DNA of 64,000 nucleotides from Candidatus Melainabacteria bacterium (GTDB lineage: Bacteria > Cyanobacteriota > Vampirovibrionia > Obscuribacterales > Obscuribacteraceae): NCBI GenBank assembly GCA_027451745.1, contig DAIDIP010000001.1:1-64000 (forward strand), in the 5' to 3' direction. The position numbers were made by a program, and so were the translations under genes. Each line of letters starts with the position of its first letter. The stretch's first letter is position 1. Below, piece by piece: positions 35,808 to 61,579 of the stretch. The notes beneath the pieces are model-generated. The model was not told the DNA's origin. It did not search any database and saw only the letters and a program-made list of their open reading frames with translations.

Positions 35808-35816
35808 ATCCGACTC

Positions 35817-36122: not shown

Positions 36123-36124
36123 TT

Positions 36125-37084: not shown

Positions 37085-37099
37085 TTTCTTGTCCTAGTT

Positions 37100-37738: not shown

Positions 37739-37741
37739 CTT

Positions 37742-37868: not shown

Positions 37869-37887
37869 TCTCTTTCCACCCTTACGA

Positions 37888-38241
37888 TTAAAGTTTGACT
37901 TCAATATCTACACCGGCTGGCAAATCAAGACGCATAAGTGCATCAGCTGTAGTCGGAGTTGGGTCATTAATATCTATAAGTCTCTTATGAATACGAATTT
38001 CAAAATGCTCACGTGACTTTTTATCTACGTGCGGGGAGCGCAATACACAATAAACTCTTTTGCGAGTTGGCAGTGGTACTGGACCACAAACAGTAGCACC
38101 GGTACGCTTAGCCGTATCTACTATTTGATCGGATGATTTATCAATCAAACGATGATCATATGATTTCAAACGAATTCGAATTCGTTGAACTTTTGGTGAT
38201 ATCGTCGTTGTTTCTGCTTTGGCTGCTTTTGCCCGCGCCAT
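37888..38241 (-). CDS. rpsJ: 30S ribosomal protein uS10
   Basis: First gene of the long ribosomal run; 117 residues with [40 protein letters not shown] and the ending [14 protein letters not shown]. About 15 N-terminal residues are extra. Besides ribosome function, S10 takes part in antitermination with NusB. In cyanobacteria rpsJ is usually in the str cluster, so its place here is of some taxonomic weight. Confidence 0.96.
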
Positions 38242-38520
38242 AATTCTTACTCCACTTTATATTAAACGTGTCTTATACTTGAACACGTCACAAGCTGCCC
38301 GTTCCAAAGGACGGAAAGGATATTCTACCTAATAGGCAAGAAAAATAAAGAGAATATGCTTAGAAGAAATAATCTTTTACTAGTATATGCAATTTTTTGA
38401 CACTCTGACTTACTGTAACTGTGAACTGATGGCATTATTGAGCCCTTCTGCAAAATGTTTTTAAATTATGAAGATGATAGATTTTGCTTATAACTTGATT
38501 ACACAAACAAGAAATGATGT
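38242..38520. promoter_or_regulatory. Upstream region of the ribosomal run
   Basis: This region must hold the promoter for the minus-strand ribosomal genes. A 6-bp inverted repeat (ACGTGT ... ACACGT, 38266-38288) lies in the rpsJ leader about 25-47 bp before the start codon. I could not assign a -35/-10 pair with confidence; a weak candidate is TTTATT-16-TAGAAT on the minus strand near 38325-38355. No gene is seen on either strand up to 38520. Confidence 0.35.
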
Positions 38521-38718
38521 CTGTTTAAAATAAGAACAGCTATTTTCACCATCTTGCTTCTATTTAATTGCCAATCTAGTTTTGCTATGACTTTTGATTG
38601 TCAGGATAAAATGCATCAATTTTGGCATGACGTGAGAATGAAAGTGGAGTCACATTGGCATCCTGTAGATAGCAATCCCCACAAGGTTATCCAACGGTTG
38701 CAACTAATGGGACATTAA
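38521..38718 (+). pseudogene. Possible small secreted-protein gene split by the IS
   Basis: Reading the plus strand from 38521 gives FKIRTAIFTILLLF and then NCQSSFA, a good signal peptide (basic start, hydrophobic core, Ala at -1). About 38 polar residues follow, rich in Trp and His (MHQFWHDVRMKVESHWHP). The frame runs into the IS at the CTAA target site and stops inside it. Without the IS and one CTAA copy, the same frame would continue to 40061 and end normally. No ATG/GTG/TTG precedes the signal peptide (only CTG at 38521), and a terminator-like hairpin lies in the continuation, so the case for a former gene is moderate. Confidence 0.35.
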
Positions 38719-39965
38719 CAAAATTTCAGGCCAAACAAGGCTAAAAAGATCATACTGAGCGGTTGTTACCTGTAGCACCACCGGATGTATTTAGCTGGTT
38801 TGCTAGGTGACAGTGAACGTAAAAACATTTGGGCAATGGCTGAGGGCACTGTAGAAGGTAATTATCACAGCCTTCATCACTTTCTCCATGATGCGCCGTG
38901 GGAAGCAAGAAAAGTCAATGAGCGGCGTTTGGAAGTTGTTTCTTCTTGCAGACAAACACGAATAAAGTCTGGCTTTAACTTGATTATTGATGATTCCGGG
39001 CATCGAAAAAGCGGGGCAGAAACTGCAGGTATTGGCAGACAATACATTGGTCAGCTCGGTAAAGTCGATAACGGTATTGTAATGGTTACAAGCCATGCTT
39101 ACGACGGAGTAAAAGGCATCCCGCTTGATGTTGAGCTCTACCAGCATGCCTCTTCTTTGCCTGAAGGTAAAGAAAGCACTGAGTTTTTAAAAAAGCCTGA
39201 GATAGCACTCAAGCTAATAGATCAGTGCCTAGAACGCGCACTGACACCAGGAGTTGTTTTGTTCGATGCAGGTTACGGCAACAATGCGCCATTGTTAAAG
39301 GAGGTAGAAAATAGAAAACTAAAATATATTGCTGCCATAAGCAGGACCAGAAATATTTATTTCCAAATGGCGGAAGATACTCGCAATGAGAAGCACGGGA
39401 TTGAGGAAGTTGCTAAGACCCTTGCACCAGAACTTTTCAAACCGATTGAACTGCCATTGGATAAGCCCCGCACTGTGTGGGTGGCTATCTTAGAGGTATA
39501 CATGCCTCAAATGAGCGGTAAGAGAATCGTCGCTGTTCAGCTGGATGCACCTGTACTGTCTGAAGCAAAAGAAATTGATTATTTCATTACCAACGAATCT
39601 AAGGAACAGGCAACTGCTGAATGGATCTCACGTTCGTATTCAATGCGAAATTGGGTAGAGGTCTTTTACAGGGAAGCCAAAGGCTGGCTGGGTATCACAG
39701 AATACCAAGTCAGAGATCGAAGAAGCATTCACCGCCATTGGGTACTCGTTTTTACTGCTCATAGCCTGATTCAATGGCAGCAATTAACTGGTGGATTACG
39801 CAGATGGTCAACAGAACCAATTGAAACCTTTCAAGAAGCTCTGCGGGCTTACAAATCTGCTGTAGATTTTCTTTTGGTCAGATGGATATCATTATTCCCT
39901 GAGGCATTCGCCGCTCACAGACAGAATATTGGTCTGGTATGGTGCTAAAAAGTGTTAAAGTCCCA
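38708..39965 (+). mobile_element. Complete IS701-family insertion sequence
   Basis: The 1258-bp element is bounded by inverted repeats: left TGGGACATTAACA (38708-38720) and right, read inward, TGGGACTTTAACA, with 12 of 13 matching. It is flanked by the direct repeat CTAA (38704-38707 and 39966-39969), which fits the 4-bp YTAR target duplication known for IS701. It carries one intact transposase gene, so it looks recent and possibly active. It sits upstream of the ribosomal promoter region and outside the tRNA-bounded island. Confidence 0.9.
38785..39948 (+). CDS. IS701-family DDE transposase
   Basis: A 387-residue cut-and-paste transposase. The DDE site is visible: first Asp in LIIDDSGHRKSG (about 66-77), second in VLFDAGYGNN (about residue 152) and Glu in VEVFYREAKGWLGI near residue 300. 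The following YQVRDRRSIHRHW is characteristic of the family. The ATG at 38785 follows a stop codon in frame 15 bp upstream, and only 77 bp separate it from the left end. The N-terminus is therefore shorter than in some relatives, but nothing is truncated. The stop lies 17 bp from the right end. Confidence 0.92.
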   Translation: MYLAGLLGDSERKNIWAMAEGTVEGNYHSLHHFLHDAPWEARKVNERRLEVVSSCRQTRIKSGFNLIIDDSGHRKSGAETAGIGRQYIGQLGKVDNGIVMVTSHAYDGVKGIPLDVELYQHASSLPEGKESTEFLKKPEIALKLIDQCLERALTPGVVLFDAGYGNNAPLLKEVENRKLKYIAAISRTRNIYFQMAEDTRNEKHGIEEVAKTLAPELFKPIELPLDKPRTVWVAILEVYMPQMSGKRIVAVQLDAPVLSEAKEIDYFITNESKEQATAEWISRSYSMRNWVEVFYREAKGWLGITEYQVRDRRSIHRHWVLVFTAHSLIQWQQLTGGLRRWSTEPIETFQEALRAYKSAVDFLLVRWISLFPEAFAAHRQNIGLVWC

Positions 39966-39990
39966 CTAATCAATCAATTACCCACCCAAG

Positions 39991-40022
39991 AGAGCGTCAG
40001 TAGAAATACTGGCGCTTTTGTT
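39991..40022 (+). terminator. Intrinsic terminator right of the IS
   Basis: A 10-bp stem (39993-40002 with 40007-40016, one G-T pair) with a GAAA tetraloop is followed by TTTTGTTT. It would stop plus-strand transcription leaving the IS, and may have ended the gene that the IS interrupted. Confidence 0.75.
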
Positions 40023-40266
40023 TATCCTGTTTGCAATATAGAATTAGAAGCAACTTACTGAATAACTGCGAAACATAAGGCGCGGACTAGCGGTAAATAG
40101 ATTGTCGTTTGTTTCTAGCAGGGGCAAACGGCAATCGCTTTCTTTTGGTTGTAAAAACAAACGGAATTTGGAGAGTGATTGATTACACTACTCTCTATTT
40201 GACTACTCAGTTTTTTGGTTTCGTGCTGTCCTAATGCTGTCCAGAAATTCAGCCGATCCTTGAAAG
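40023..40266. other. Gap between IS terminator and tRNA fragment
   Basis: About 240 bp with no gene I can support. A minus-strand frame next to the tRNA 3' end is open for some 50 codons (NFWTALGQH...), but it has no start and no recognisable relative. Confidence 0.4.
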
Positions 40267-40320
40267 TGGTGGGCGGTATAGGATTCGAACCTATAACCCC
40301 CTCGGTGTAAACGAAGCGCT
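40267..40320 (-). pseudogene. 3' fragment of tRNA-Val(UAC): attachment site of the island
   Basis: Read on the minus strand, the segment gives the end of the D stem, an anticodon arm CTTCG-TTTACAC-CGAGG (anticodon UAC, valine), a variable loop, the T arm ATAGG-TTCGAAT-CCTAT, the 3' acceptor half ACCGCCC and the encoded ACCA. The acceptor 5' half and most of the D arm are absent; the sequence beyond 40320 is unrelated. This is what remains at the distal end of an element that integrated into the 3' part of a tRNA gene. An intact minus-strand copy is expected at the other end, which is not in the window. The repeated core could be up to 54 bp. Confidence 0.88.
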
Positions 40321-40331
40321 ATAACGTCGTT

Positions 40332-40352
40332 TGGGCGTTTAGCCCATCTTTT
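40332..40352 (+). terminator. Possible terminator just inside the island
   Basis: TGGGC-GTTTA-GCCCA (40332-40346) is followed by TCTTTT. Placed between the att site and the integrase, it could insulate the element from chromosomal transcription. Confidence 0.45.
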
Positions 40353-40515
40353 GTCAAGTGTTCTTTGTTTATCTCAGATTATCTGAAACTATGTAGCAGA
40401 GCCAATGTTAGGGCTTTTTGATCATAGCGCTGCCTATCTTTCATTTTCTGCCTTGAATAGAAGATGAATAGAAGATAGACTGTATTCACTTTCCGGTCAA
40501 TCGTGAGGTCAACCT

Positions 40516-41721
40516 ATGCCAAAAATTGCCAAGAACCAGCTTAACTTCACCAAGAAAGAACTTGACAAGATTTACTGTCCGCCTGAAGGTTACGTCGTCT
40601 ACCACGACACCGTGGTCAAGGGGCTAATCCTTATCGTTTATAGCCGCAGCAAGACGTTCCATATCTACAAGCTTGTGAATGGCAAGCCAATGAAGCCGAA
40701 GCTGGGTAATTTCCCAGACATGACTGTGGAACAGGCGCGCACCGAAGCAATTCGAATGCTTTCTGCCATCTCTAAGGGTGAGCCTGTCCACTCCCGAGCC
40801 TTATCAAAACCGTCTAGCCTAAGCTTGGGCGAAATATTCGACCATTATATAGATGAATATGCGCAATACCATTGCACCACATGGCAGGAAACCTGCAAGA
40901 GCTTTCGGCGATATTTTGGTGTTTGGTGGTCCAGGTCAGCGGACACCGTTACACGCGCGGATGTACAACAACACATGAACACGCTTGGAAAGGAGCGCGG
41001 ACATCATACAGCTAACCGTGCGTTTGATGATCTGCGTGCTGTGTATTCCTGGGGCACCAAATATGGTTACTACACTGGCACCAATCCCTGCACTGCCATT
41101 ACCAAGTTCAAGACTCGCTCTCGGGAGCGGTTTATTCGCCCCGATGAGTTCGAAATCTTTCTTGAAACTCTAAAAACTGAAACGAATATCAGCCTTCGCG
41201 ATTATGTATATTTGAGCCTTCTAACCGGTGCCCGTCAAGCAAATGTTCTTGGCATGCGCTGGGATCAAATCGATTTCGATTTGCATCTGTGGTACATCCC
41301 GATCACCAAAAACAAGGAATCCCAAACCTTACCGCTGACTGAACTGGCGATGCGTCTTTTGGAAGACCGCCATCAACGACGAGAATCTGACGAATGGGTT
41401 TTCCCCAGCCACAGCGTCAAAGGACATATTGTTGAACCCAAAGCTGGCTGGCGGAAGTTTCTTGATAAAACTGGCCTGCAAGATCTTCGCATGCACGACC
41501 TGCGCCGAACACTCGGAAGTTATATGGCCATGAATAACCAATCACTCCAGATTATTGGTAAGGTTCTCGGTCACAAATCCACCACTGCAACGCAGATATA
41601 TTCGCGGTTAGCGTCTGATCCGATCAAGCAGGCGATGGAAGCCGCTCAGGCATCAATGTCTCAGAGCGCAGATATTCTGCCTGCTGCTGTGAACAAGCGG
41701 CGGCTGAAGCGCGTGAAGTAA
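40516..41721 (+). CDS. P4-type tyrosine integrase
   Basis: A 401-residue site-specific recombinase of the tRNA-targeting kind. The N-terminal arm-binding domain (DUF4102-like, about 10-90, with GYVVYHDTVVKGLILIVY) is followed by the core-binding domain (100-195) and the catalytic domain: R240 in LLTGARQANVLGMRW, H327-x2-R330 in MHDLRRT, H353 in LGHKSTTATQIYSRL and the nucleophile Y362. All catalytic residues are present. It starts about 195 bp from the tRNA fragment and reads away from it, the usual layout. A GAGG-type site precedes the ATG. Confidence 0.93.
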   Translation: MPKIAKNQLNFTKKELDKIYCPPEGYVVYHDTVVKGLILIVYSRSKTFHIYKLVNGKPMKPKLGNFPDMTVEQARTEAIRMLSAISKGEPVHSRALSKPSSLSLGEIFDHYIDEYAQYHCTTWQETCKSFRRYFGVWWSRSADTVTRADVQQHMNTLGKERGHHTANRAFDDLRAVYSWGTKYGYYTGTNPCTAITKFKTRSRERFIRPDEFEIFLETLKTETNISLRDYVYLSLLTGARQANVLGMRWDQIDFDLHLWYIPITKNKESQTLPLTELAMRLLEDRHQRRESDEWVFPSHSVKGHIVEPKAGWRKFLDKTGLQDLRMHDLRRTLGSYMAMNNQSLQIIGKVLGHKSTTATQIYSRLASDPIKQAMEAAQASMSQSADILPAAVNKRRLKRVK

Positions 41722-41779: not shown

Positions 41780-41901
41780 TTGACCGGACAAATCTATAAG
41801 ATTATTATATACTTAACCGGTCAACGTCAACCAGTCTTTGCGGTTGACACTGGCCGGAGAAACTTGTAGGATTATTATATGTTTAGCCGGTCAACGTCAA
41901 C
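41780..41901. promoter_or_regulatory. Duplicated operator/promoter of the abiE pair
   Basis: Two copies of a 48-bp unit (41784-41831 and 41854-41901, offset exactly 70 bp, about 40 identical positions) each carry CCGG...ATTATTATAT...CCGGTCAACGTCAAC. The first unit is framed by a perfect inverted repeat, TTGACCGG (41780-41787) and CCGGTCAA (41817-41824). It also contains a promoter, TTGACC-17-TATTAT. The second unit covers the abiEi start codon. AbiEi antitoxins are known to repress their own promoter by binding two inverted repeats, which fits well. Confidence 0.7.
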
Positions 41902-42694
41902 TAATAGCTGGTTTTTTGCTCGCCATCCAATCTTCACGATGGATGAGTTTGCTGCCTTCAATAAGCTGACCAAGCGTGAGTCTAAATACGCGCTGCTTGC
42001 CTACAAACGGCGCAGTGGGCGTGTGCTCAACATACGCCGCGGGATCTATGCTGTTGTACCAGATGGAGCAGAACCGCAGTCATACATGGTCAATCCATAT
42101 CTCGTGACAGCCAAGGCCACCAGTGACGCAGTTGTCGCTTATCATTCGGCGCTGTCCTTTCATGGTTACGCCTACTCGGACTTCAACTTGTTCACATACT
42201 TGACCAAGCAGAAGGAAGCAAGCAAGTTTACCTTCCAGAACAGCGAGTACGTTGGTGTTACCCAGCCGAAAGCACTTATGAAACAAGGACAGGAGCTTGA
42301 CGCTGTCGACGTCGTGGAGCATGGCGGCTTAGATATTCGAGTGACTTCGCTTGAAAGAACCTTGGTTGACTGCTTTGATCGCTTGGATATTTCGGGTGGC
42401 ATCGAGGAAGTCTGGCGTTCATTGGAGCTGGTGCCTTACCTGCGTATATGGCAAATCTTACAATATGTGGTGCTGCTCGATAATGCGGTTACTACCGCGA
42501 AAGTAGGTTTTTTCCTTGAGATGAACAAGCAGCGTTTCCACGTTGAGCAAAAGGATCTAGAATTTTTGTGCAGCCGTAGGCCGGCACACAAATCATATAT
42601 GTTCCGCATGGAGCGTAAAGGAAAGCTAGTCCGTGACTGGAACTTGATTGTTCCAAATGATGTACTGGAGCGAACTTGGGAGGAGCCACATTGA
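41879..42694 (+). CDS. abiEi: AbiEi-family antitoxin/transcriptional repressor
   Basis: A 271-residue protein. The N-terminal winged helix (about 13-60, FFARHPIFTMDEFAAFNKLT to RVLNIRRGIYAVV) is the AbiEi DNA-binding domain. The C-terminal part (VRVTSLERTLVDCFDR-like block at about 150-165) is the antitoxin domain found in this family. In type IV toxin-antitoxin pairs the antitoxin does not bind the toxin but counteracts it and represses the operon. The start is within the second operator repeat, which would make repression direct. It overlaps the toxin gene. Confidence 0.85.
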   Translation: MFSRSTSTNSWFFARHPIFTMDEFAAFNKLTKRESKYALLAYKRRSGRVLNIRRGIYAVVPDGAEPQSYMVNPYLVTAKATSDAVVAYHSALSFHGYAYSDFNLFTYLTKQKEASKFTFQNSEYVGVTQPKALMKQGQELDAVDVVEHGGLDIRVTSLERTLVDCFDRLDISGGIEEVWRSLELVPYLRIWQILQYVVLLDNAVTTAKVGFFLEMNKQRFHVEQKDLEFLCSRRPAHKSYMFRMERKGKLVRDWNLIVPNDVLERTWEEPH

Positions 42695-43674
42695 AAATTT
42701 CACAGGCAAGGCTCGCTGAGGTGGCAGCTGATACAGGGTTTAGACCGGATACACTTGAGAAAGTAATCCGGCTCTTGGACCTGCTCAATCAGATAAATGA
42801 AAATCCGTACCTCACATCTCGCCTCGCGCTAAAAGGTGGAACGGCACTGAACCTATTTGTTTTCGACATTCCCCGTCTATCCGTCGATATTGACCTGAAT
42901 TATATTGGTGCCGTTGAGTTAGCTGAAATGGAAGCTGAAAGGCCAAAACTCGAAGCCGAAATTCTTGGGATTTGTCAGCGTGCCGGATTGACGCCTAATG
43001 AAATTCCATCAGAAGATCATGCTGGTGGCAAATGGAGACTAGCCTACCAAAATGCATTAGGCGGGATGGCTAGCCTGGAACTGGATCTCAACTTCATGTA
43101 CCGGCTTAACTTTCATCCAGTAATCCGCCTCGATTCAAAAAAACTTGGCTCTTACCAGGCTTTGCAGATACCTGTCCTTGACACCAAGGAGTTAGCTGGA
43201 GGTAAGCTCTCAGCGATGCTGACCAGAAACGCCAGCCGCGATCTGTTTGACGCAACAAACCTGCTGAAGTTAGTTGATCCCGCTGACGAACAACTAAGGC
43301 TTGTATACGTCCTCTATGGTGCTATGAATCCACGCGCTGATTGGCGACAGGTTACGCCAGACAATCTATCGGCAAGTATTAAGGAGCTCAAACAGAAACT
43401 GATTCCGGTATTGCGAACGAAGAGTCTGCCTGCCAAAAAAGACGATGATGCTTTTGCTGCTAATCTAGTTGCTGAGTGTAAAAGTCTATTACTGCCGCTC
43501 TTTCCTTTGCGACAGAACGAGGTGGAGTTCATATCTCTGCTACGCGACGAAGGTGAGATAAAGCCGAGCTTATTAACTAAAAACCACAGCATGATAGAAA
43601 CCATCCAAAGGCACCCGGCTCTACTGAGACGAGCCTACTCTGCTAGAAAAAACAAACCTTCGCTGTTACAGTAA
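42691..43674 (+). CDS. abiEii: AbiEii-family nucleotidyltransferase toxin
   Basis: A 327-residue DUF1814 protein. The nucleotidyltransferase motif LKGGTALNLF, followed by LSVDIDLNYIG, gives the GG...DxD catalytic core. AbiEii and the related MenT toxins transfer nucleotides, in known cases to tRNA, and stop growth during phage infection. A TTG at 42691 is chosen as start: it overlaps the abiEi stop as TTGA and has GGAGGAG 5-6 nt upstream. An in-frame TTG 15 bp earlier is possible but would lie on that ribosome-binding site. Confidence 0.87.
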   Translation: MKISQARLAEVAADTGFRPDTLEKVIRLLDLLNQINENPYLTSRLALKGGTALNLFVFDIPRLSVDIDLNYIGAVELAEMEAERPKLEAEILGICQRAGLTPNEIPSEDHAGGKWRLAYQNALGGMASLELDLNFMYRLNFHPVIRLDSKKLGSYQALQIPVLDTKELAGGKLSAMLTRNASRDLFDATNLLKLVDPADEQLRLVYVLYGAMNPRADWRQVTPDNLSASIKELKQKLIPVLRTKSLPAKKDDDAFAANLVAECKSLLLPLFPLRQNEVEFISLLRDEGEIKPSLLTKNHSMIETIQRHPALLRRAYSARKNKPSLLQ

Positions 43675-48880: not shown

Positions 48881-49342
48881 TCAAAAAGGGAATGGCATTA
48901 TGCGATGGCAGATTGTGAATAATACATTCCCCAGGTATGAGCCAATAGTAAGGCACGCATACATCACTATAAGACCTATATTTACCCATGTACACCAGGA
49001 AGTCTGCCGAATTTTTGTCTCAGTTTCCGCAGCAGTTGTTTGTAGGCGTTCTTCCCAACGATGAGCGGCAACATCCAATTGTTTCTCAATTCTATCTCCT
49101 GCTTCTGAAATTAAGTTTTTTGCAATAGCTTCGGCATTTTGAACTTGCTGCTCTGAAGCTGCGGTCATTTGATAAAGTGTTTCATCTAGGCTTTGGCGCA
49201 TGAGATGAACATAGCTATCTAGTGCAATCTTGTTGAGGATAATCCCAACATACATGGGATCATCTTTTTGAACCTGCTGCTCGAATGGCAGTTGCCGATT
49301 GGTCTCGGTTAGCAATTTGTCAATATCAATTGTTTTATCCAT
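48881..49342 (-). CDS. traM: TraM-like conjugal transfer protein
   Basis: A 153-residue protein: a soluble N-terminal part (DDPMYVGIILNKIALD), a long coiled coil (about 55-110) and one membrane helix near the C-terminus (about 115-142, WVNIGLIVMYACLTIGSYLG). This is the build of the TraM proteins that follow TraK and TraL in IncP-like transfer regions; the precise role is not known. The ATG overlaps the traL stop by 1 nt. Identification rests mainly on context and architecture. Confidence 0.6.
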   Translation of the reverse strand: MDKTIDIDKLLTETNRQLPFEQQVQKDDPMYVGIILNKIALDSYVHLMRQSLDETLYQMTAASEQQVQNAEAIAKNLISEAGDRIEKQLDVAAHRWEERLQTTAAETETKIRQTSWCTWVNIGLIVMYACLTIGSYLGNVLFTICHRIMPFPF

Positions 49343-50169
49343 TAAATCGCAATAGCTAACTGCTCATAAATGCTTCTTTGCACAATTTTGATGCGCTGTT
49401 TTGACATCAGTTGGAAAGTTTCGCTTTTCAAGGCTTCATCAAAAGTAAGCCGACGTTTCAGCATGGTGGCAATATCCTTGCCATAGGTATTGTCGGTGCG
49501 TTTGGGAAGCCGGACGATGCCGGTTACACGATGCTTGTTGTCCAAATAGGCTCTCATCTCTTCAAAGAATTTGCCTTCGGACTCGATAGGTCCAAGGTGT
49601 TCATTTAGCCACACGACAACCTGAACACCGACGGGCAGTTGTGACGTAAGGGTTACAAAATCACTTACAGTATTATCCTGTGCCAATCCGCCTGCAATGA
49701 CTGAATGGACGATCACTTGCTTGCCGGCATCCTGGATGGTATTAAAGGCCTCGTTATCAATTAGGTAAGAGGACATAGGGACGTAAGAAGTGGCGCCATT
49801 ATCAACAACGACGTTGGAATCAGCTTCCAGAATCTGCTCCATCATGTCGTCAAAGCGGCGCTCGTTAATCATGTTGTTTTCTTCCAGCAGGACGATTGAA
49901 CGCACACCCAGAGATGGGAAGCTGGAAAATGTTGCATTGATAGGATCGGTATCCAAGCATAATACATGAGGGTCTTGCTGTTTAACAAATTGAGCAATGA
50001 TGGTAGACACGAAGCTCTTACCGATGCCACCTTTGCCTTGAAGAATAAAATGAACATTCCTTGTCGATTCAGCCTTTCTGTCTGCTGAATCAATAAAGTA
50101 GTTTTGGGTCTGGGAGTCTTGGTCCGGGTTTGAATTTGGCTGGACTTCCAGGAGCACTTGGTTTTTCAT
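49342..50169 (-). CDS. traL: TraL-like ParA-type ATPase of conjugal transfer
   Basis: A MinD/ParA-type P-loop ATPase, 275 residues from the ATG at 50169. The deviant Walker A is FILQGKGGIGKSFVST, followed by VLCLDTDPINATFSSF and VVDNGATSYVPMSSYLI. The later block VVWLNEHLGPIESEGKFFEEM is characteristic of the TraL group. In RP4-type systems TraL lies between TraK and TraM and helps transfer in an undefined way. The frame is open further to 50229, and no start has a good ribosome-binding site. The gene overlaps traK by about 80 bp, which suggests coupling. Confidence 0.75.
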   Translation of the reverse strand: MKNQVLLEVQPNSNPDQDSQTQNYFIDSADRKAESTRNVHFILQGKGGIGKSFVSTIIAQFVKQQDPHVLCLDTDPINATFSSFPSLGVRSIVLLEENNMINERRFDDMMEQILEADSNVVVDNGATSYVPMSSYLIDNEAFNTIQDAGKQVIVHSVIAGGLAQDNTVSDFVTLTSQLPVGVQVVVWLNEHLGPIESEGKFFEEMRAYLDNKHRVTGIVRLPKRTDNTYGKDIATMLKRRLTFDEALKSETFQLMSKQRIKIVQRSIYEQLAIAI

Positions 50170-50473
50170 TTTTTGCTGACTCTCGTTGTATTGGTGACCT
50201 AATGTCTGATGATATTTCAGTTGATGCAATGGATTGTGATGTTGGTTTGTCGTTGCCTCCTCGCCGTTGAGATATAGACGGGAAGTTTTTGCGGACGAGA
50301 AAGGTGAACTGGCTGTAAGAGACTCCGGCTAGTGAGTCTTGTGCCTGCTGATATATGGTGGTCAACGGCCAGTCTGCATCAAGCAGTTCTTTAATAGCCA
50401 AACGATTGGCGCGGAATGCGATGCGTGCCTTTCCCCATGCCGTCCGAGTGGAAGCGACTCTCTCTCTTTCCAA
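50090..50473 (-). CDS. traK: TraK-like oriT-binding protein
   Basis: A 127-residue basic protein. AWGKARIAFRANRLAIKELL and WPLTTIYQQAQDSLAGVSYSQF in the N-terminal half match the TraK pattern of IncP-like systems, where TraK wraps the oriT DNA. The C-terminal half is Pro/Ser/Lys-rich and probably disordered. The start is a TTG at 50473 with GGAGG 5 nt upstream. It reads away from the presumed oriT and is divergent from traJ-traI. Confidence 0.7.
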   Translation of the reverse strand: MERERVASTRTAWGKARIAFRANRLAIKELLDADWPLTTIYQQAQDSLAGVSYSQFTFLVRKNFPSISQRRGGNDKPTSQSIASTEISSDIRSPIQRESAKNEKPSAPGSPAKFKPGPRLPDPKLLY

Positions 50474-50950
50474 AATTGCCTCCGTAATAGAGAAGGTGCG
50501 TAACTTTATGCCGCTATTGTAGCCCTAGGTAATATCAGAACCTTCCAGCCATGGATACAGGAATGGATTCAGAATCCCGCTCCCACTGACTCTCTCCCCA
50601 GTCACTGCCGCACTCCCGGCAACTCCCAGCCGTACCCAGCAATTTCCAGTTTGTCCCAGCGTCCCGCAGCAATTTCCAGTAATGGTCTTGGAAGATTCCA
50701 GCACATCACAGCATCCCCCAGTACATCACAGCAGCTTCCAGCAAGTCACAGCATGTCCGAGAATTGTTGCAATTTGCTGGAAGAATACGTAAGATTTTGT
50801 AGGCAAGATGTGTGCTGTACCGGTACGCGACAAGTCGCCTACCAGTCCGGTCACAATTGCGGCAGAGCTTACTCGCAACTTCGTTTCTCGACGCGCAGTA
50901 TCTTTGGTGGCATAAAGAAACTTTTTTACGCCAGGGAGGAAATTATTAGA
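50474..50950. other. Presumed oriT region between traK and traJ
   Basis: This 477-bp divergent gap occupies the place of oriT in RP4, between traK and traJ-traI. It holds the 10-bp phased array (50545-50757) and, nearer traJ, the inverted repeat GCGAC-AA-GTCGC (50827-50838) beside ACCGGT. I could not find a sequence close to the IncP nick site (YATCCTG), so the exact nick position is open. Confidence 0.6.
50595..50757. repeat. Array of CCAG(C/T)-type words with strict 10-bp period
   Basis: Words of the form (C/A)CAG(C/T) or CCGGC end at 50620, 50630, 50640, 50650, 50660, 50670 and 50680. After a 22-bp break they continue at 50702, 50712, 50722, 50732, 50742 and 50752; CCCCAGT also ends at 50602 and TTCCAGC at 50549. 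The period equals one helical turn and is not a multiple of three, so it is not the result of coding. All words face one side of the helix. Confidence 0.8.
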
Positions 50951-51304
50951 ATGATGATTCGAGGAACCCGCCCACGAAAAAATCGTATTGAAGTTTGGTG
51001 CGATGATGATGAACTCGCAAAAATTAAAGCGAATGCAAAGGACACTAAGCTATCTAACTCTGAATTTCTGCGGAATCTTGGGAAGGGCTATGAGCCCAAA
51101 AGTGCCTTTGATAAAGAGGCGATCAGAGGGCTTGCCAAATTGCACGCTGATCAAGATCGCCTGGGTGCTTTATTGGCACAATGCCTTTCCGAAGGCAAAG
51201 GCGGCAGCTCACCGCTAAAAAATGTAGGACCTCTGTTACAAGAAATTGAAAGCCTACAAACATTCATTGCAAAACTGGTACTGGAACAGGCCCGCAGCTT
51301 ATGA
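50951..51304 (+). CDS. traJ: TraJ/MobC-like relaxosome accessory protein
   Basis: A 117-residue protein of the ribbon-helix-helix type: RIEVWCDDDELAKIKANAKD then KLSNSEFLRNLGKGYEPKS, followed by a helical region (LAKLHADQDRLGALLAQCL). TraJ binds an inverted repeat at oriT and guides the relaxase to its nick site. The ATG at 50951 has GGGAGGA 10 nt upstream. The open frame continues 300 bp further up, but that part is the oriT array. Its stop overlaps the relaxase start as ATGA. Confidence 0.75.
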   Translation: MMIRGTRPRKNRIEVWCDDDELAKIKANAKDTKLSNSEFLRNLGKGYEPKSAFDKEAIRGLAKLHADQDRLGALLAQCLSEGKGGSSPLKNVGPLLQEIESLQTFIAKLVLEQARSL

Positions 51305-53001
51305 TTATTAAAGTCATAGAGCGCAAGACGAGCGAAAAGTCGCGTTTTGACCGACTCGGGCGTTATATATTAAACGCTAAAGAAAACGAGTCTATATTGT
51401 TTGCGCGGACTGCTCGATACGTTATGGATGAGAAAGGAAATGGTGAGAAAGTTGGCTGGTATCGAATCTCAAACTGTCAATCAAATACGCCAGCAGTTGC
51501 AATTGCCGAGGTATTGGCCACTCAAGCTGAAAATCGGCGAGCTAAATCTGACAAGACGTATCATCTGGTTGTTTCCCTACCGCATTGGGAACAATTGAAT
51601 CGAGAGCAAGCGGAAGATATCGAAGATACGATTTGCGCCGGTTTGGGATTTGCTGAGCATCAGCGAATCAGCGCTGTACACGAAGACACAGATCATTTTC
51701 ACTTGCACATTGCCATTAACAAAATCCATCCGAACACATTTAGTTGTGTAGAGCCGTATTACCCTTACTACAAGCTAGATAGCTTAGCGAAAGCTCTGGA
51801 AATTAAGCACGGATTGTACCAAGCTAATCGCATTGGGCAGGGAACACGTTTTCCCAAAGTTGGTGAACTAGAAGCGCACCAGCAAGAAGAGTCTTTTATG
51901 AGTTGGTTAAATGAAAAGCTGGGCGACCAACTCAAGCAAGTGCTGAAAGAAGCCACGGGATGGCAAGACGTGCACGATTTGCTCGCTCCATATGGTGCTG
52001 TGATCAAGCCCAAAGGGGCTGGATTAGTAATAGCCACCGCAGATGGTACTGTTGGGATTAAGGCAAGTTCATTGAATCGGAAACTGTCTTTCAAATCATT
52101 GACTGACCGTTTTGGGATATATAAGCCGTCTCAAAACCAGGGCAAACCGCTCAAGCAATATCAACCGGGCTTGCATAAGTCGCTGGGTATGAATTCTCTG
52201 TATGCGGAGTTTCAAAAGGTTCAGGAAGCCAATCGTCAGGCAAAAACAAAAGCCCTAGCTGACTTGCGCTCTAAGCATAACGAGTACCGAATCGAGCTGA
52301 GAGACTGGTATCGACAACGGCGTAATTCGATGAAAATAAACACAAACTTGGACAAAAAATCAAAGAGAACCATCTATCACGAGCTTTCCCAGGAGATGAA
52401 AACAGACTTTGCCGAATTGAAACAGCGTGAACAGGAACAAAATAAGGTAATTCGAGAACAACTACATTCGCAGACGTGGGACCATTATTTAACCAGTCGC
52501 GCTGAAGAAGGTCATGCGGAGGCATTGCACATTCTAAGGCGGCGGAAAAACTACAGACGGCAGATCGCTCAAACATTGCTGACCATTGAAAGTTTTGAGG
52601 ATGCAAAGGATGTTATAAAAACTCAATTTAAGCCGACCGTTTTCAAAAATGGCAAAGTTATCTACCGAACACAGGACGGCGGTGTAGTTGCCGATGAGGC
52701 GACTGCAATTACCGTGCCAGAAGTAACAGAACTATCGACTTTATTGGCCCTATCATTGGCAGAAGAGCGGTTTCATGGACGGCCAATTGTTGTAGAAGGT
52801 TCGCTTGAATTCAAGCTCCTAATTGCAAAACTCTCTGCTATCGAAGGATTGTCCATCCGTTTTGCTGATCCGGCGCTGGAAGACAAAAAAGAACGACATA
52901 CTAGAGCAAATGACTTGAATCCAAAAAGACTCAAGGAAGGTATTGTGGCAACGGGCAAGCAACCGGTACACGATGCGAAGCAAAATTACCATAATCGATA
53001 A
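51301..53001 (+). CDS. traI: MOBP (TraI-like) conjugative relaxase
   Basis: Nicks oriT and pilots the strand into the recipient. A 566-residue protein; motif I has Y22 (LGRYILN), the same position as the catalytic Tyr of RP4 TraI, followed by GWYRISNC. Motif III is H127EDTDHFHLHIAIN with the His cluster H127, H132, H134. The middle is helical and basic (about 300-440). The last part (about 470-545, VVADEATAITVP to GSLEFKLLIAKLS) is an LPD7-type domain often found behind relaxases. The helicase/primase parts of larger TraI proteins are absent. Confidence 0.9.
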   Translation: MIIKVIERKTSEKSRFDRLGRYILNAKENESILFARTARYVMDEKGNGEKVGWYRISNCQSNTPAVAIAEVLATQAENRRAKSDKTYHLVVSLPHWEQLNREQAEDIEDTICAGLGFAEHQRISAVHEDTDHFHLHIAINKIHPNTFSCVEPYYPYYKLDSLAKALEIKHGLYQANRIGQGTRFPKVGELEAHQQEESFMSWLNEKLGDQLKQVLKEATGWQDVHDLLAPYGAVIKPKGAGLVIATADGTVGIKASSLNRKLSFKSLTDRFGIYKPSQNQGKPLKQYQPGLHKSLGMNSLYAEFQKVQEANRQAKTKALADLRSKHNEYRIELRDWYRQRRNSMKINTNLDKKSKRTIYHELSQEMKTDFAELKQREQEQNKVIREQLHSQTWDHYLTSRAEEGHAEALHILRRRKNYRRQIAQTLLTIESFEDAKDVIKTQFKPTVFKNGKVIYRTQDGGVVADEATAITVPEVTELSTLLALSLAEERFHGRPIVVEGSLEFKLLIAKLSAIEGLSIRFADPALEDKKERHTRANDLNPKRLKEGIVATGKQPVHDAKQNYHNR

Positions 53002-54949: not shown

Positions 54950-56374
54950 TTAAATAGAACCGCTTGCCCAAACAATCTGTGTTTGTGCAATTCGGTAGTT
55001 GTACACAGCTTCTAAAAGCGCAAGCTTTGCTCGGAAAAGTTTGAGTGCCGCTTCGAATTCTTCAAGCGCAATGGATTTGCCAATTTCATAACGTTGATGA
55101 ATTAATCTATAATCCTCTTCAGCAGAAGTAACTTGTGCTTTAGATAGCTCAATATTTTGTCGCGTCAAGTCAAGATCTACCCAAGCCGTCGAAACATCTT
55201 GAGCCACTTTAAGCTCTGCTTGACTATGAGCCAGTTCCGCTTGTCTAATCGCTTGCGTGGCTGCCCGAAGTTCAGCTGCACGTTGCCCAGAATCATATAT
55301 TGTTTGGTGTCCAACCACACTAACAAAACCTCCCCACCGACCTCGAGCGCTACCATCAGGTGAGCTGCCGGTTATATTGCTGCCCAATCCGTAAAGATCA
55401 ACATGTGGCGCATAGCTACTGCGAGCAATGATTTTTCTTGCTCGCATTTCCTCTAAACGACTAGTAGCTTGCGCTATTTCTGGACGATTAGTACCGGCCT
55501 TTATTAGAAAGGCGTCTAGATCTTCGGCTGTTTCTACAAATTCAAGTGAGTCTGCCAAATCTATCAATGAAGCAAGATTGATACCCATACTCGCTTTCAA
55601 ATTAATTAAAGATACGTTGAAGTCGCGATAATCTTTATTCAGTTGCACCTTGGATAGTGCTAATTCAGCTTCTTCTCGCAAATAGTCGGCTCTTGGAGCC
55701 TTCCCTTCTTTTATGCGTTGCTTCATATTAGCGGTCGACCCATTCCTAAATTTAACATAGTCGCTATCGACTCTTAATCGCGCCGCATTTAAAAGAACTT
55801 GCAAATACAATTGCTTGATATTTTTAGCAGTATCAATTTTTGCTTGTTGAAACTGCGCTATCGATTGCTTTTCCTGTGCCTTTACAGCTTTATAGTTTCC
55901 CCGCAAAGCGCCACCGGTAAACAAAGGCTGCACGCCTGCGAAGATAACACTGAAGGAAGTATTTTTCACAATCGGTTGCATTGGGGCGGCAACAGAAACT
56001 GCTCCATCGTTTGGATAGAACAACATTTGATTAAGAGACGATGTTGAGTAAAAGGTACTGGTTGATATGTTTGGGCCGAATTTTCCTAAAGCAGCTCGGC
56101 TTTTGAAACGCGATATTTTTGTATTAATTTCCGCCTGTTCATATTCCAGGTTGTGCTCAAGCCCCACTTTCACGGCTCGGTCCATGGTAAAAGGTCCAGA
56201 GTACTGCGGTAACTCCGAAGATGGGGCACTCTGAGTGATACTCAATTTGATTGGGTTTTGCAAAAGGATATCTTCAGGTGAGGTAGCGGTTAATTGTGAT
56301 TGTCCGTGAGCTGCTAGGAATAAATTAAGAAGCAAACTACAAGACAAGAACTTTAGAATAAGCTTTGGCTTCAT
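54950..56374 (-). CDS. TolC-family outer-membrane efflux protein
   Basis: A 474-residue outer-membrane channel with a signal peptide (about 5-24). Two OEP repeats are visible, each with long heptad helices: EHNLEYEQAEINTKISRFKS in the first and RPEIAQATSRLEEMRARKII in the second, followed by YEIGKSIALEEFEAALKLF. It should form the exit duct of the tripartite pump encoded just upstream, whose pump gene it overlaps by 4 bp. Confidence 0.88.
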   Translation of the reverse strand: MKPKLILKFLSCSLLLNLFLAAHGQSQLTATSPEDILLQNPIKLSITQSAPSSELPQYSGPFTMDRAVKVGLEHNLEYEQAEINTKISRFKSRAALGKFGPNISTSTFYSTSSLNQMLFYPNDGAVSVAAPMQPIVKNTSFSVIFAGVQPLFTGGALRGNYKAVKAQEKQSIAQFQQAKIDTAKNIKQLYLQVLLNAARLRVDSDYVKFRNGSTANMKQRIKEGKAPRADYLREEAELALSKVQLNKDYRDFNVSLINLKASMGINLASLIDLADSLEFVETAEDLDAFLIKAGTNRPEIAQATSRLEEMRARKIIARSSYAPHVDLYGLGSNITGSSPDGSARGRWGGFVSVVGHQTIYDSGQRAAELRAATQAIRQAELAHSQAELKVAQDVSTAWVDLDLTRQNIELSKAQVTSAEEDYRLIHQRYEIGKSIALEEFEAALKLFRAKLALLEAVYNYRIAQTQIVWASGSI

Positions 56375-59300
56375 AAACTATCACCTCGCTCAGCAAATCG
56401 CTTGCGCCATTTATCACGGAGCCAAATACTAAAATCATCTATATAGGCGTGCATAATAGGAATATCAAAAAGACTAAGAACAGTACCTACCAGAAGTCCG
56501 CCTATTATGACGGTACCGAGCGGTGAATAAGCATCCATGCCAGTCTTTGGAAAAAGTGCGACCGGTAACATAACGATAATGGTTATAATTGAAGTCATAA
56601 GAATTGGTCTTAGCCTAATTGGACATGCTTTTATAATCGCCTCATTGCGCGACATACCGTGCTCTCTAAAACGCAAAATTTGATCAATTAATAAAATGGC
56701 AGTTGTGATGTCCATTCCTGTTAGAATTATCACGGCCATAATAGAGACAGTAGAGAACGCCTGATGAGCCAGCCATAAAGCTGAAAACACACCAGCTAAT
56801 TCCAATGGTAAAGAAAAGACCATTTGTAATGGTTGTAAAAATCCTCTAAATTGCCCTATCAACAGAAGAAAAATGAAAAGAAGCGCAAGTTGTAAGCCTA
56901 CAAGCAAACGCCCAAAAGAATCCATCATTTGAGTCATATCGCCGCGCATCTCAATCGTATAGCCAGGAGGCCAATTGACTTTTGCCATTGCTTTCATCAT
57001 GACGTCCATACCGACATCCATCGAAGGCGGCTCACCAATACGGTAATAGCCCATGACAGTAATTGCCCGCCTCATCTGGTCATGATTAATCAACGTGGGA
57101 GCGTCACGATATTTAAGACTCGCTAATGTTTTTAATGGCACTTGCTTGCCATCTGGAGTGGTGATAGTCATAAGCAATAAATCTTGTGGATTTTTTCGCT
57201 GAGGCTGGTCATACCTTAGTTGTATGGTCCGCTGCCGAATATTAGGAAGTCTATAAAACTCATTGGTTAAGGCACCATTCATTGCGTAATATGCCTGTTC
57301 AGATATTTGTTGTGGTGTTAACCCAACTTCAAGAGCGCGGCGCGAATCAACTTTTATTTCCCAGTCAGGCTTAGACATTGCCCAGTCTGTTGCCACTTGA
57401 TGCATGCCCAAAGTGTTTTTGGCTATCTCTGCTACTTGTTGAGCCATTGCGCTCAGAATTCCCGCATCCGGTCCGGTCACCAAAATTGAAATAGGTGCTT
57501 GGGAGCTCGCCATAACATCTGAACCCATTTCTTTAATTTGAAAGCGCCTGATACTTGGTATTTCGGCAATTGCTTGTTCTTGAATACGATCTATAATTTG
57601 CCAAATATTTTTCTTGCGAGCATCCTTGTCACTGAATGTGATCATAAAAGTGGCTGTATTCACTTGCTGCATGCTATAGCCATTAAAGTATGTACCGCCC
57701 GGATCCACGCCTATCTCTGAAGACACATGTTGAATTTCTGGATATTTGAGCATGAGATTTTCAACTCGCTTCGTAATCTTTTCAGTTTGCTCAAAGGAAG
57801 AACTTGCGTCTGTTTCCAGCACTCCATATGCTTGACCTACATCGGCAAGTGGCATCATTTCGCTGCCAATGAAATTGTAAAAGGTAAAGCCAATAACTAT
57901 GGTTATTAGTATTCGCGTTAGGTTGAGAAAACGATGTTCAAGCATCCAAGCAATGCAAGAGGCATAACTATTCTCTAGCTTAGTCAAAAATCTATCGAAA
58001 GGTTCACTCACTCTCTCTTTTACCATCCTACCAAAACGAGTTTTTGCAGTCTCTGACTGGTCGTGTACCCGTAGTATTTTTTCTGCCAAAACAGCCGTTA
58101 AAGTGAGCGACACAAAGAAAGAGGCCAGTAGTCCAAAAATAATTGGCCAGACTAGTCCAACAAACATTTGCTCAACAATACCGCCACAGAAAAGAAGGGG
58201 TAGCAGAGCAAAAATAAGTACCATAGTAGAAGCCGCTACGGCCAGCCTTACTTCCGTAATACCATCAATCGTAGCTATACGAGGATCTTTACCCATACGC
58301 AAATGTCTTTCAATTGAATGGATATCAATAATTGAGTCATCTACCAATCGACCAATAGACAAGAGCAACCCTATAAGGGTTGAGCTATTAAGCGTCATTC
58401 CAAGTGGTATCAGACAAAGAACCGCCATTGACAACGAAATAGGTATAGTTATCATTGAAATCAGCGTGCCCCGCCAGTCCCCGATAAATAGGAACACAGC
58501 AATTCCAGTCAGCAACACCGCAATTGCAAGTTCTTCGACCATGTTATTCATTAGGATTTGAACAAATTTTGAATTATCGTAACTGGCCTCAAACTTGAGG
58601 CCTGGGTATTCTTTTTGTAGTTGTACAATTTCTTTTTCAATGCCGCGTATCACTTCAGGAGAACTGGCTGAGGGTTCTTGTATGATGCTAACTTCAATGC
58701 CTTGATCTATTTTGCCGTCATGCACGTGATGATAAGCTGCGCGCCGCTCCCAAAACGTATCCTCTACTCTGGCTATGTCTTTCACATAAATAATACGATC
58801 GCCGATAGCTTTTATTGGATAGTTTTCCACTTCAGTTGAATTTTTCGCTAAAGTATCTATCCTTACTATCGCTTCGTTTTCTTTTGTGGTCAGCCTACCA
58901 GCTGGTCTAGCAACATTCTGCTTATCCAAAGCATCGCGGACATCTAAAATCGAAAGATTGTAAGCAGTAAGTTTATTTCTATCCACCAATATTTGTAACT
59001 GCCGCTTAAAACCGCCAAATGTATAAATCGACCAGACATGCGGCACTCGTTTCAATCGGTTGGTGATTTCATTATCAGCAAATTCTCTAAGCCTCACCTC
59101 ATCCCAACCAGAAGCCGTAAAGTTGTATGTTAAAACTGGCAAATTGAGAGGATCTATAGGTAATACCCATGATGGTTTTAAATTAGCACCAGTCACAGGC
59201 AAGTCCGCTTGAACAACATTCATTAGCGCTTGCACATCAACAAGAGCGCGTTTCATATCTGTACCGTACGGAAATTCCAGCGAAACCATAGAAAAACCAT

Positions 59301-59637
59301 CTTGAGATGAAGAGCGAATATAACGCACTCCTTTAATATCAACCATCCGTTCTTCAATCGGCTTACTTATATAAAGCTCCATGTCTTCAGACGAAAGCCC
59401 TGGCTGCATTGTGATCACACCAATCATTGGACTCTCGACGTATGGCATAAGTCTTTTAGGCATATAAAAGCCTATTGCCGCCACCGCCAGTAGCACCACT
59501 GCCAAATAGAATGCTGCAATGGCATAGGGATGATCTATCGACCAAGCAGTTACGTTGAAGTGGTTTCTGTCCGGCTTCACAGACTCATTTATTTCTGGCG
59601 TATCGGTGAAATTTGTCATATCAAGGGATATCAACAT
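56371..59637 (-). CDS. RND-family efflux pump, inner-membrane subunit
   Basis: A 1088-residue proton-driven transporter with the RND two-fold plan: one N-terminal helix (about 36-57), a large periplasmic loop, six helices (about 365-560), a second loop and six helices (about 885-1070). LLSIGRLVDDSIIDIHSIER in helix 4 carries the proton-relay Asp pair. The adaptor carries a heavy-metal-binding domain and the operon a MerR regulator, so a metal cation is the most likely substrate. The helix-4 motif, however, is as close to the drug-type as to the CzcA/CusA pumps. The start overlaps the adaptor gene by 17 bp; an ATG at 59619 is an alternative. Confidence 0.88.
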   Translation of the reverse strand: MLISLDMTNFTDTPEINESVKPDRNHFNVTAWSIDHPYAIAAFYLAVVLLAVAAIGFYMPKRLMPYVESPMIGVITMQPGLSSEDMELYISKPIEERMVDIKGVRYIRSSSQDGFSMVSLEFPYGTDMKRALVDVQALMNVVQADLPVTGANLKPSWVLPIDPLNLPVLTYNFTASGWDEVRLREFADNEITNRLKRVPHVWSIYTFGGFKRQLQILVDRNKLTAYNLSILDVRDALDKQNVARPAGRLTTKENEAIVRIDTLAKNSTEVENYPIKAIGDRIIYVKDIARVEDTFWERRAAYHHVHDGKIDQGIEVSIIQEPSASSPEVIRGIEKEIVQLQKEYPGLKFEASYDNSKFVQILMNNMVEELAIAVLLTGIAVFLFIGDWRGTLISMITIPISLSMAVLCLIPLGMTLNSSTLIGLLLSIGRLVDDSIIDIHSIERHLRMGKDPRIATIDGITEVRLAVAASTMVLIFALLPLLFCGGIVEQMFVGLVWPIIFGLLASFFVSLTLTAVLAEKILRVHDQSETAKTRFGRMVKERVSEPFDRFLTKLENSYASCIAWMLEHRFLNLTRILITIVIGFTFYNFIGSEMMPLADVGQAYGVLETDASSSFEQTEKITKRVENLMLKYPEIQHVSSEIGVDPGGTYFNGYSMQQVNTATFMITFSDKDARKKNIWQIIDRIQEQAIAEIPSIRRFQIKEMGSDVMASSQAPISILVTGPDAGILSAMAQQVAEIAKNTLGMHQVATDWAMSKPDWEIKVDSRRALEVGLTPQQISEQAYYAMNGALTNEFYRLPNIRQRTIQLRYDQPQRKNPQDLLLMTITTPDGKQVPLKTLASLKYRDAPTLINHDQMRRAITVMGYYRIGEPPSMDVGMDVMMKAMAKVNWPPGYTIEMRGDMTQMMDSFGRLLVGLQLALLFIFLLLIGQFRGFLQPLQMVFSLPLELAGVFSALWLAHQAFSTVSIMAVIILTGMDITTAILLIDQILRFREHGMSRNEAIIKACPIRLRPILMTSIITIIVMLPVALFPKTGMDAYSPLGTVIIGGLLVGTVLSLFDIPIMHAYIDDFSIWLRDKWRKRFAERGDSL

Positions 59638-61579
59638 TTATAGTAGTAGTTTGATTATTGACGCGCAGAATAATTTGCCACAACCCGCTCATAAAGTTAG
59701 TCGTCAACTCGTAATTACCTTTTCCTTTTTCTATGGCTGACAGATCTGGTCCAGGCATCGACATAGCGGGCATTGTCGTTTTGGCACTAATCGAAGCTCC
59801 TATGACCGCTTTAGAATCCAGGCTTAAAATAGTGCATCGCAATTTATTGTTACTCCCTTTAGGTGGTTGCGGAAGCATAATCAAATGCAGATGCATGCCT
59901 TCTAGCTTTATATCATTTGTCCATTTATTATCCGAATCAAGACGATTAGTTTGCACTTTCGAAACAGTTGGCAACGTGACTGGTCCTGATTCTCCCCATT
60001 CTGTGGCAATTACCGGCAGCCCATTTTCGAGTGAAGAATAACCTTGATAAATAATTTGATCGCCTTCGCTCAGCCCAGAAGTTACCTCAGTATTTTGGTC
60101 ATCGGACACTCCTGTAGTTATTGCAGTAAGATGCGCTGATAAATTGCCTGATGAAGTCATAGGCACAAGCGTCATTCCACATATAGGACACTTTCCTGGC
60201 TTATCCGCTTTAATTTGTGGATGCATAACGCAAGTGTATTTGGTGTCATCAGTACCACCACTACCGACCGCTCGCCAAACCTGAGATTTCCCTTCGCGCC
60301 AAACAACCGCGCTTGAAGGAATAACCAAAGCATTTTCCTTTCCTGTGCTTATTCGCATAACAACATAGTCACCAGGAAGCAAGCGAAAAGATGAAAGATT
60401 TGGCAGAGTTCTGGAACTAGAGCCTTTGTCCGACAATCTGGGACCCGTATTATCCACCAACGCCTCAACAATCACGGTCCTTGTGCTGACATCGGCCGCC
60501 GGAAAAATTGACGTTATATTCGCTTCAATTTGATCATCAGCCAATTCAGAGCTTTTTATGTAGACAGTATTACCAACAGTAATTTTGTCCGCATCCACTG
60601 ATGCTACTTCAGCTTGAACACGAACCTTTTTTAAATGACTAATTTTGAGAATTAGCATCCCAGGATTAACTACTACCCCAGGACTTACCAACCGCTTAAC
60701 TACAACCCCGTCTGACTGGGCTTGAATGCGTGTATAGCTATGAGTTATGTCCGCTGTAAGTGTGGCGGCTTCCGCTTCTCGCGCCGCAAAGGCAATATGT
60801 CCGACATGGTGTGCGGCAGCTTCGTAAGCTGCATTCGCAGCTAATCTTGTACTTTTGGCTTGATTCTGTTTAGCTACCAGCTGCCTGACTTTGGCCGACG
60901 CCTGATTGTATTTATTTAACTCATCATCATACTCTTGCTGAGAAATTACCTGCCCCTTAAGCAAATTCACTTCACGCTTAATTTCGGGCGACCAATATTC
61001 CAAATCGGATTTCGCCTGTTGTAGCTCGTCCGCTGCTGCAGATTCAGCAAATTTAGCTGCCTCTAGTTCATATGATTTTTCAGACAACTCCTGGCGCGCA
61101 ATGCTTGCATTGTTCATGGCTGCTTCGCTAGCGTAGCGACTTTCAGATAATTTGCTTGCATATTCTGATCGGTCCGTAGGATCTAATTGGACTAATAGCT
61201 GTCCTTTTTTGACCGTATCTCCCGGATAAACAGGCATGGAAACAATACGACCGGTTAAGCGAGGAAAAACATCCTCATCTTCATAAGCTTGCACTGTGCC
61301 GGTATAAGTTACAGAACCTTCTATTGTCTCTCTTTCAACTGTTGCAATTGCAACAGGAACAGCTCCACGCGGTGGTTGCATAGCAGACATATCCATCGCT
61401 TGGGATTCAATAACACTCATTTGTCCAGGTTTTTTAAAATGTTGGACTATAAATGCACAGATGCCGATAACGGCTGCAAGGGCCATTAGCGACCAAAAAT
61501 TTTGCTTAATCCAGTCCCGAGAACGACTCGAAGCAGATGAGCGACTGATATCGTTTGGTCTATTTTGATCTAAATTCAT
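59621..61579 (-). CDS. RND adaptor fused to HMBD and YtkA-like domains
   Basis: A 652-residue periplasmic adaptor anchored by one N-terminal helix (about 28-46). The membrane-fusion plan is present: lipoyl half (VSMPVYPGDTVKKGQLLVQL), a long coiled-coil hairpin (about 130-270), the second lipoyl half and beta barrel. A heavy-metal-binding domain (YTCVMHPQIKADKPGKCPIC, then GM) is inserted after the barrel, at about 450-475. The C-terminus (about 555-652, MHLHLIMLP, TTMPAMSMPGPD, NFMSGLWQI) resembles YtkA/FixH domains rich in Met and His. Such a triple fusion would present metal to the pump. It is followed without gap by the pump gene. Confidence 0.85.
   Translation of the reverse strand: MNLDQNRPNDISRSSASSRSRDWIKQNFWSLMALAAVIGICAFIVQHFKKPGQMSVIESQAMDMSAMQPPRGAVPVAIATVERETIEGSVTYTGTVQAYEDEDVFPRLTGRIVSMPVYPGDTVKKGQLLVQLDPTDRSEYASKLSESRYASEAAMNNASIARQELSEKSYELEAAKFAESAAADELQQAKSDLEYWSPEIKREVNLLKGQVISQQEYDDELNKYNQASAKVRQLVAKQNQAKSTRLAANAAYEAAAHHVGHIAFAAREAEAATLTADITHSYTRIQAQSDGVVVKRLVSPGVVVNPGMLILKISHLKKVRVQAEVASVDADKITVGNTVYIKSSELADDQIEANITSIFPAADVSTRTVIVEALVDNTGPRLSDKGSSSRTLPNLSSFRLLPGDYVVMRISTGKENALVIPSSAVVWREGKSQVWRAVGSGGTDDTKYTCVMHPQIKADKPGKCPICGMTLVPMTSSGNLSAHLTAITTGVSDDQNTEVTSGLSEGDQIIYQGYSSLENGLPVIATEWGESGPVTLPTVSKVQTNRLDSDNKWTNDIKLEGMHLHLIMLPQPPKGSNNKLRCTILSLDSKAVIGASISAKTTMPAMSMPGPDLSAIEKGKGNYELTTNFMSGLWQIILRVNNQTTTINVDIP

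Follow-up and report, generated by a model that had tools for sequence, protein, structure and literature searches.

The window, the whole 64,000-nucleotide stretch of the Candidatus Melainabacteria contig DAIDIP010000001.1 (C1) that we analyzed, carries a transfer module in the order traMLK-oriT-traJI, in which an array of short repeats is flanked by traK on one side and by an IncP-type nic and inverted repeat on the other (Table 1). The nic-like sequence sits within the imperfect inverted repeat. A nic core of the form YATCYTG/Y, an inverted repeat, a relaxase and a ribbon-helix-helix accessory protein are all present, as in an IncP-type oriT with a MOBP relaxase, and CATCYTGC boxes equivalent to the nic of the window were found in nearly all relatives. 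The product of traJ also matched the TraJ model NF010451 with an E of 4e-16, under the curated cut-off. If RP4 is a guide, transfer of the strand cut at nic would start off through the array and traK.

Table 1. Features of the transfer module and its surroundings in the window (a slash in a sequence marks the predicted cut)
Feature	Positions	Strand	Remarks
Tyrosine integrase gene	40516-41721		
traM-like gene	48881-49342	-	Named by position; neighbors annotated TraM in relatives
traL	49342-50229	-	ParA/MinD-like ATPase; start codon uncertain
traK	50090-50473	-	127-aa product, candidate array-binding protein
Block II, traK-proximal	50611-50680	-	7 decamers; + strand words with their ends: CCCGGC 50620, CCCAGC 50630, CCCAGC 50640, TCCAGT 50650, CCCAGC 50660, CGCAGC 50670, TCCAGT 50680
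Spacer	50681-50692		Gives the 22-bp word-to-word step between the blocks
Block I, nic-proximal	50693-50752	-	6 decamers; + strand words with their ends: TCCAGC 50702, CACAGC 50712, CCCAGT 50722, CACAGC 50732, TCCAGC 50742, CACAGC 50752
Imperfect inverted repeat	50799-50842	-	Arms 50799-50811 and 50830-50842; presumed TraJ site
nic-like sequence	50802-50810	-	CATCTTG/CC, IncP type; predicted cut between 50804 and 50803
traJ	50954-51304	+	Ribbon-helix-helix (NikA-like); PF21983, E 2e-13
traI	51301-53001	+	MOBP relaxase; NF041893, 431.7 bits; PF03432
Heavy-metal efflux genes	54950-61579		

The integrase gene, the heavy-metal efflux genes and, past the end of the window (C1:64001-78000), frames that by reading rather than by profile resemble a trb/VirB-type secretion operon all lie nearby, suggesting that the module belongs to an integrative and conjugative element. 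Some 3 kb separate the integrase gene from a ribosomal-protein (S10/spc) operon (region 25030-41721), and the element therefore appears to be integrated near that operon. An IS-type transposase gene (38785-39948) lies between the two, an AbiEi/AbiEii-like pair of the type IV toxin-antitoxin or abortive-infection kind (41879-43674) adjoins the integrase gene, and no tRNA gene was found in the 64-kb window.

The array consists of 13 words spaced 10 bp apart throughout save for one 22-bp step (7 + 6 units), and in these respects, as in the ends of the words, the original prediction held. When 50541-50790 was laid out in rows of ten, the words fell in one column, and a word finder that imposed no spacing returned, in the direction of traK, 6 words, the 22-bp step and 7 words. 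Read in that direction, the core is (T)TGCTGG. The repeated word had been given as CCAG(C/T), a strict form that we found in 8 of the 13 words; the remainder read CACAGC (three times), CGCAGC (ending at 50670) and CCCGGC (ending at 50620). Because these five words depart from CCAG(C/T), we take the invariant part to be NCAG(C/T), which fits 12 of the 13. The span of 50545-50757 that had been proposed was too wide: the CCAG words ending at 50549 and 50602 are off-register and outside the array, and the true extent is therefore about 50611-50752.

We measured the periodicity of the array against 2000 dinucleotide-preserving shuffles. Self-match at lag 10 over 50600-50760 was 0.51 (z 6.45), a value reached by no shuffle at any lag from 1 to 40, and self-match was also raised at the harmonics 20, 30 and 40, so that the 10-bp excess over shuffled sequence expected from autocorrelation of the + strand was clear. 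The array is the top lag-10 site of the window, scoring 0.538 per 130 bp against 0.408 for the next best site and a mean of 0.252 ± 0.041 for 130-bp stretches. Three copies of YMCAGY at 10 bp matched six times in the 3.0-Mb genome, each time within the array, and the reversed control of this pattern had no match in the same genome. A coding origin of the array was rejected because 10 bp is not a whole number of codons and because the open reading frame over the array (50651-51304) is merely the traJ frame extended upstream.

We then compared traK-upstream intervals of relatives, 22 at first and then 36, with statistics computed on 20 non-redundant traK-nic intervals. Most of the intervals compared have a 10-bp array, and the words differ between elements. 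The combined z over the 20 intervals was 19.9, 15.2 and 9.4 at lags 10, 20 and 30, values that are weaker as family-wide figures because IncP-like intervals and a few without periodicity (G793, G823, Rhizobium) are absent from the set, and that come from intervals not fully independent, since they are distantly related to one another. At lag 10 the combined z was still 18.9 once the genome of the window was removed, individual z exceeded 2.5 in 18 of the 20 intervals, and the traJ side of nic, used as a control, gave a combined z of 0.5. The 10-bp period thus recurs in other traK-traJ gaps, with other words. Lags 41-70 peaked in class 2 modulo 10 (6.5, vs. 2.1 for class 0, 1.9 for class 1 and at most 2.1 for the others), which makes two blocks offset by 22 (or 32, or 42) bp a shared layout.

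The words were TCGCAT/TCGCGT in P. aeruginosa pJHX613, Halomonas and Pantoea, TTGCCT/TTGCGT in Citrobacter, E. coli, Xanthomonas and Acidiphilium, ATAATTTC in Azospirillum, ACGCAC in P. amygdali, TTTGCATTA in N. europaea and TCGCCT in a Synechocystis plasmid. Signals at 11 bp rather than 10 were seen in Acinetobacter L020, two further genomes and R388. RP4 was weakly periodic (z 2.3 at lag 10, 2.5 at lag 21), and RP4/IncP-1 intervals were for that reason rejected as strong arrays. A candidate promoter, TTGCNN-N17-TANNNT, placed so that the -35 falls within the step between the blocks and the -10 within block II, was found in five groups (pJHX613-type, Citrobacter-type, Sphingomonas, a Paenibacillus record and Acidiphilium) and in R388, whose own -35/-10 pair, TTGCAA-N17-TATGAT, overlaps the second repeat set. 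Such an overlap of promoter and array in relatives fits autoregulation; no sigma-70-like traK promoter was recognized in the array of the window.

A second, rearranged transfer module lies on the same contig (C1:131500-149245). Here the insertion of an IS66-like set and an RND efflux operon has parted traMLK-oriT from traJ-traI, which now lies 15 kb from traK (C1:132687-133064; positions 1185-1568 of locus L065, taken from this region). Between the two copies TraJ, TraL and TraI are 69-70% identical, TraM 62% and TraK 46%, TraK being the fastest diverging of TraK, TraJ, TraL and TraI. The nic/inverted-repeat core is identical at 61 of the first 65 aligned bases, and the N-terminal DNA-reading strand of TraJ (RGTRPRKNRIEVWC) is the same in both. 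The period of the second array is also 10 bp, with the word TTGCAAT vs. TTGCTGG in the window. In this comparison the array word has changed along with TraK, not with TraJ.

These data bear on the idea that the repeats are bound by the ribbon-helix-helix, NikA-like TraJ, as direct-repeat arrays are by ParR-type proteins of that fold. Ribbon-helix-helix proteins often sit on short direct repeats, and traJ is adjacent to the array. If TraJ read the repeats, however, the word should be kept when its reading strand is kept, whereas the words of the two copies differ although reading strand and inverted repeat are shared, and it is TraK that has diverged most. Furthermore, the TraJ site of RP4 is a 19-bp inverted repeat with no array (PMC7314908), and an array is present without an adjacent traJ both in the second copy and in R. 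rubrum, which keeps traK and array with no traJ annotated alongside. We consider binding of the repeats by TraJ very unlikely.

Among the relatives, the choice of word tends to go with one residue in the predicted recognition helix of TraK, a lead from a tally that ignores ancestry. The residue after a conserved QF in the last helix is T with TTGC words (window, second copy, E. coli group, Comamonas, Pseudomonas MF4836, Paenibacillus record, Acidiphilium, Rhizobium) and N or A mostly with TCGC words (pJHX613 group, Sphingomonas, Stenotrophomonas, P. viciae, Nitrosospira, Synechocystis); N. eutropha, Chelatococcus and Vampirovibrio are exceptions. An AlphaFold model of TraK has helices at 3-22, 24-32, 37-44 and 53-63 and a disordered tail, with a mean pLDDT per ten residues of 83-90 across residues 11-60, consistent with a helix-turn-helix domain in the N-terminal region. 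Because neither phmmer against PDB sequences nor Foldseek of the model against the PDB gave a convincing match, the evidence for this assignment is the predicted helices and the known relatives. No model in Pfam or NCBIfam matched TraK, and its similarity to TraK family proteins was seen by tblastn (E 1e-3) and alignment. A search of genome contigs with the TraK of the window alone found no match, and searches across the family and phylum of the host turned up no further clear TraK. The host is probably a non-photosynthetic member of the Cyanobacteriota (Vampirovibrionia): its 16S matched Firmicutes and cyanobacterial copies on the plasmids compared at only 82-83%, and members of its class have genomes of 1.8-2.2 Mb.

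Taken together, the position of the array, its covariation with TraK, its recurrence in 20 intervals and the precedents of StbA-stbDR and RP4 argue that the array is very probably the site that the TraK of the element itself recognizes, a phased operator or wrapping platform. This is in essence the platform of one unit per turn that the original prediction had offered, with binding being what we infer. Counting against it are the weak periodicity of RP4, whose TraK is proven to bind, the exceptions to the trend between residue and word, and the failure to recognize a sigma-70-like traK promoter in the array of the window.

The same prediction had offered a sequence-directed bend as another option. 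The phased words would then matter through their curvature, perhaps to IHF/HU-like factors, rather than as words specific to a protein. The 10-bp phasing would suit a bend, and when curvature was scored against shuffles by a wedge model, the array of the window was borderline (z 1.9, p 0.055) and the RP4 TraK site strong (z 3.5), the latter agreeing with published curvature. However, the arrays of the second copy, E. coli, N. europaea, the Paenibacillus record and Synechocystis were not more curved than shuffles. Because most 10-bp arrays other than that of the window were not curved, curvature was rejected as a shared property. What recurs instead is the word core and the spacing, and the word tends to track TraK sequence, which makes the bend very unlikely as the explanation. 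A functionless relic of tandem duplication or chance repetitiveness is extremely unlikely: tandem slippage does yield periodic DNA, and the array is periodic, but conservation covers only part of each decamer, the other positions varying, no indels interrupt the 7 and 6 units, and period and 22-bp step stay equal across the 20 intervals in spite of differing words.

A TraK recognition site of this form has a counterpart in R388 (IncW, MOBF11), and the view that oriT regions are without such arrays does not hold, since two sets of five 9-bp repeats with 2-bp spacing, that is, one every 11 bp, lie beside the R388 oriT (PMC3098194). These stbDRs are bound in vitro by StbA, and StbA, the stbDRs and the ParA-like StbB balance stability against transfer (PMC3098194). 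StbA also represses its own promoter about 50-fold (PMC3937220), and the TraK of RP4 was identified as a StbA homolog by iterated PSI-BLAST (PMC3098194). The window resembles R388 in having two sets of direct repeats about one turn apart beside oriT, in the TGC of the repeat core, and in the operon that follows the array, which encodes a small DNA-binding protein, a ParA-like ATPase and a third protein. Phased repeats in two sets, a position between oriT and such an operon (TraK/StbA, ParA-like ATPase, TraM/StbC) and a TraK homolog encoded next to them are all found, as expected of a TraK/StbA-type site. The window differs from R388 in the word, in having a MOBP relaxase with an IncP-type nic, in a TraK only remotely similar to StbA, and in a spacing of 10 bp with a 22-bp step vs. 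11 bp with a 41-bp jump, the latter partly read from degenerate repeats. Most TraK-clade intervals, like that of the window, have a period of 10 bp and not 11 bp, and we therefore file the array as a variant and not as an stbDR.

RP4 (IncP-1 alpha) shares with the window the order traMLK-oriT-traJI, the side of nic and the TraK family, and we read the array as corresponding to the RP4 TraK site. Its TraK binds srk, a curved oriT region of about 200 bp, and represses traJ and traK (PMC7314908), activities that the TraK of the window would share. Unlike the strongly periodic and weakly curved array of the window, the RP4 site is strongly curved and weakly periodic, with no clear decamer array. 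Ziegelin et al. reportedly found in 1992 that RP4 TraK wraps DNA. Mobilizable plasmids with TraK such as pMBUI2, pJHX613 and pMTY11353_3, which we take to be PromA-like, share the modules, the 10-bp arrays and the 22-bp step. They differ in their words (TCGCRT or TTGCCT vs. TTGCTGGRA in the window) and in having a probable -35 element within the step and a -10 within block II, neither of which was seen in the window. In ParR-parC of R1, two blocks of about 11-bp direct repeats lie on one helical face and are wrapped by a small DNA-binding protein; unlike the putative TraK complex, this involves a ribbon-helix-helix protein with an actin-like motor and is not beside oriT.

That all words lie on the same helical face, as had been proposed, is approximately right. 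Against a helical repeat of 10.5 bp per turn, units of 10.0 bp would each lag by about 0.5 bp, and the 22-bp step would regain about 1 bp. The 11-bp units of R388 would run ahead, with the inter-set jump read as 41 bp vs. 42 bp for four turns. Both layouts would thus keep the array roughly on one face.

How might such an array work? Each decamer would take one TraK subunit or half-site, read by the helix-turn-helix domain, and a spacing of about one turn would place the subunits on one face of the DNA, making contact, bending or wrapping possible. Bound TraK might then impose a bend or a wrap on the leading side of oriT beside nic. The resulting nucleoprotein could help TraJ and TraI to open and nick oriT, could repress the divergent promoters of traK and perhaps traJ, and could let the ParA-like TraL take hold of the DNA. 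A broader possibility, which we put forward tentatively and hold to be somewhat doubtful, is that TraK and its array form a fast-diverging, interchangeable, centromere-like identity module worked by TraL, in which the fixed 10/22-bp geometry is mechanical and the word a label that keeps the oriT complexes of co-resident elements apart even when their relaxase and nic are nearly alike.

The array is of a kind already known, and the family-wide 10/22-bp layout with its switching of words is apparently, and provisionally, undescribed in the literature searched, which leaves most subscription journals uncovered. If the array is read by TraK, the TraK side of an IncP-type oriT gains a readable code of 10-bp units, a 22-bp step and a word that tends to follow TraK; a phased array would explain how TraK can wrap DNA at oriT; and the RP4 TraK site would be linked to the R388 stbDRs, between which the earlier link was remote protein similarity alone. 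TraK sites could be annotated across many conjugative and mobilizable elements, and TraK-DNA specificity would become directly testable by swapping words or residues in laboratory plasmids. One record in the comparison stands apart in its host: Paenibacillus rubinfantis NZ_LN909059.1, a Firmicutes record, carries a proteobacterial-looking TraK/oriT module, for which contamination or very recent transfer may account.
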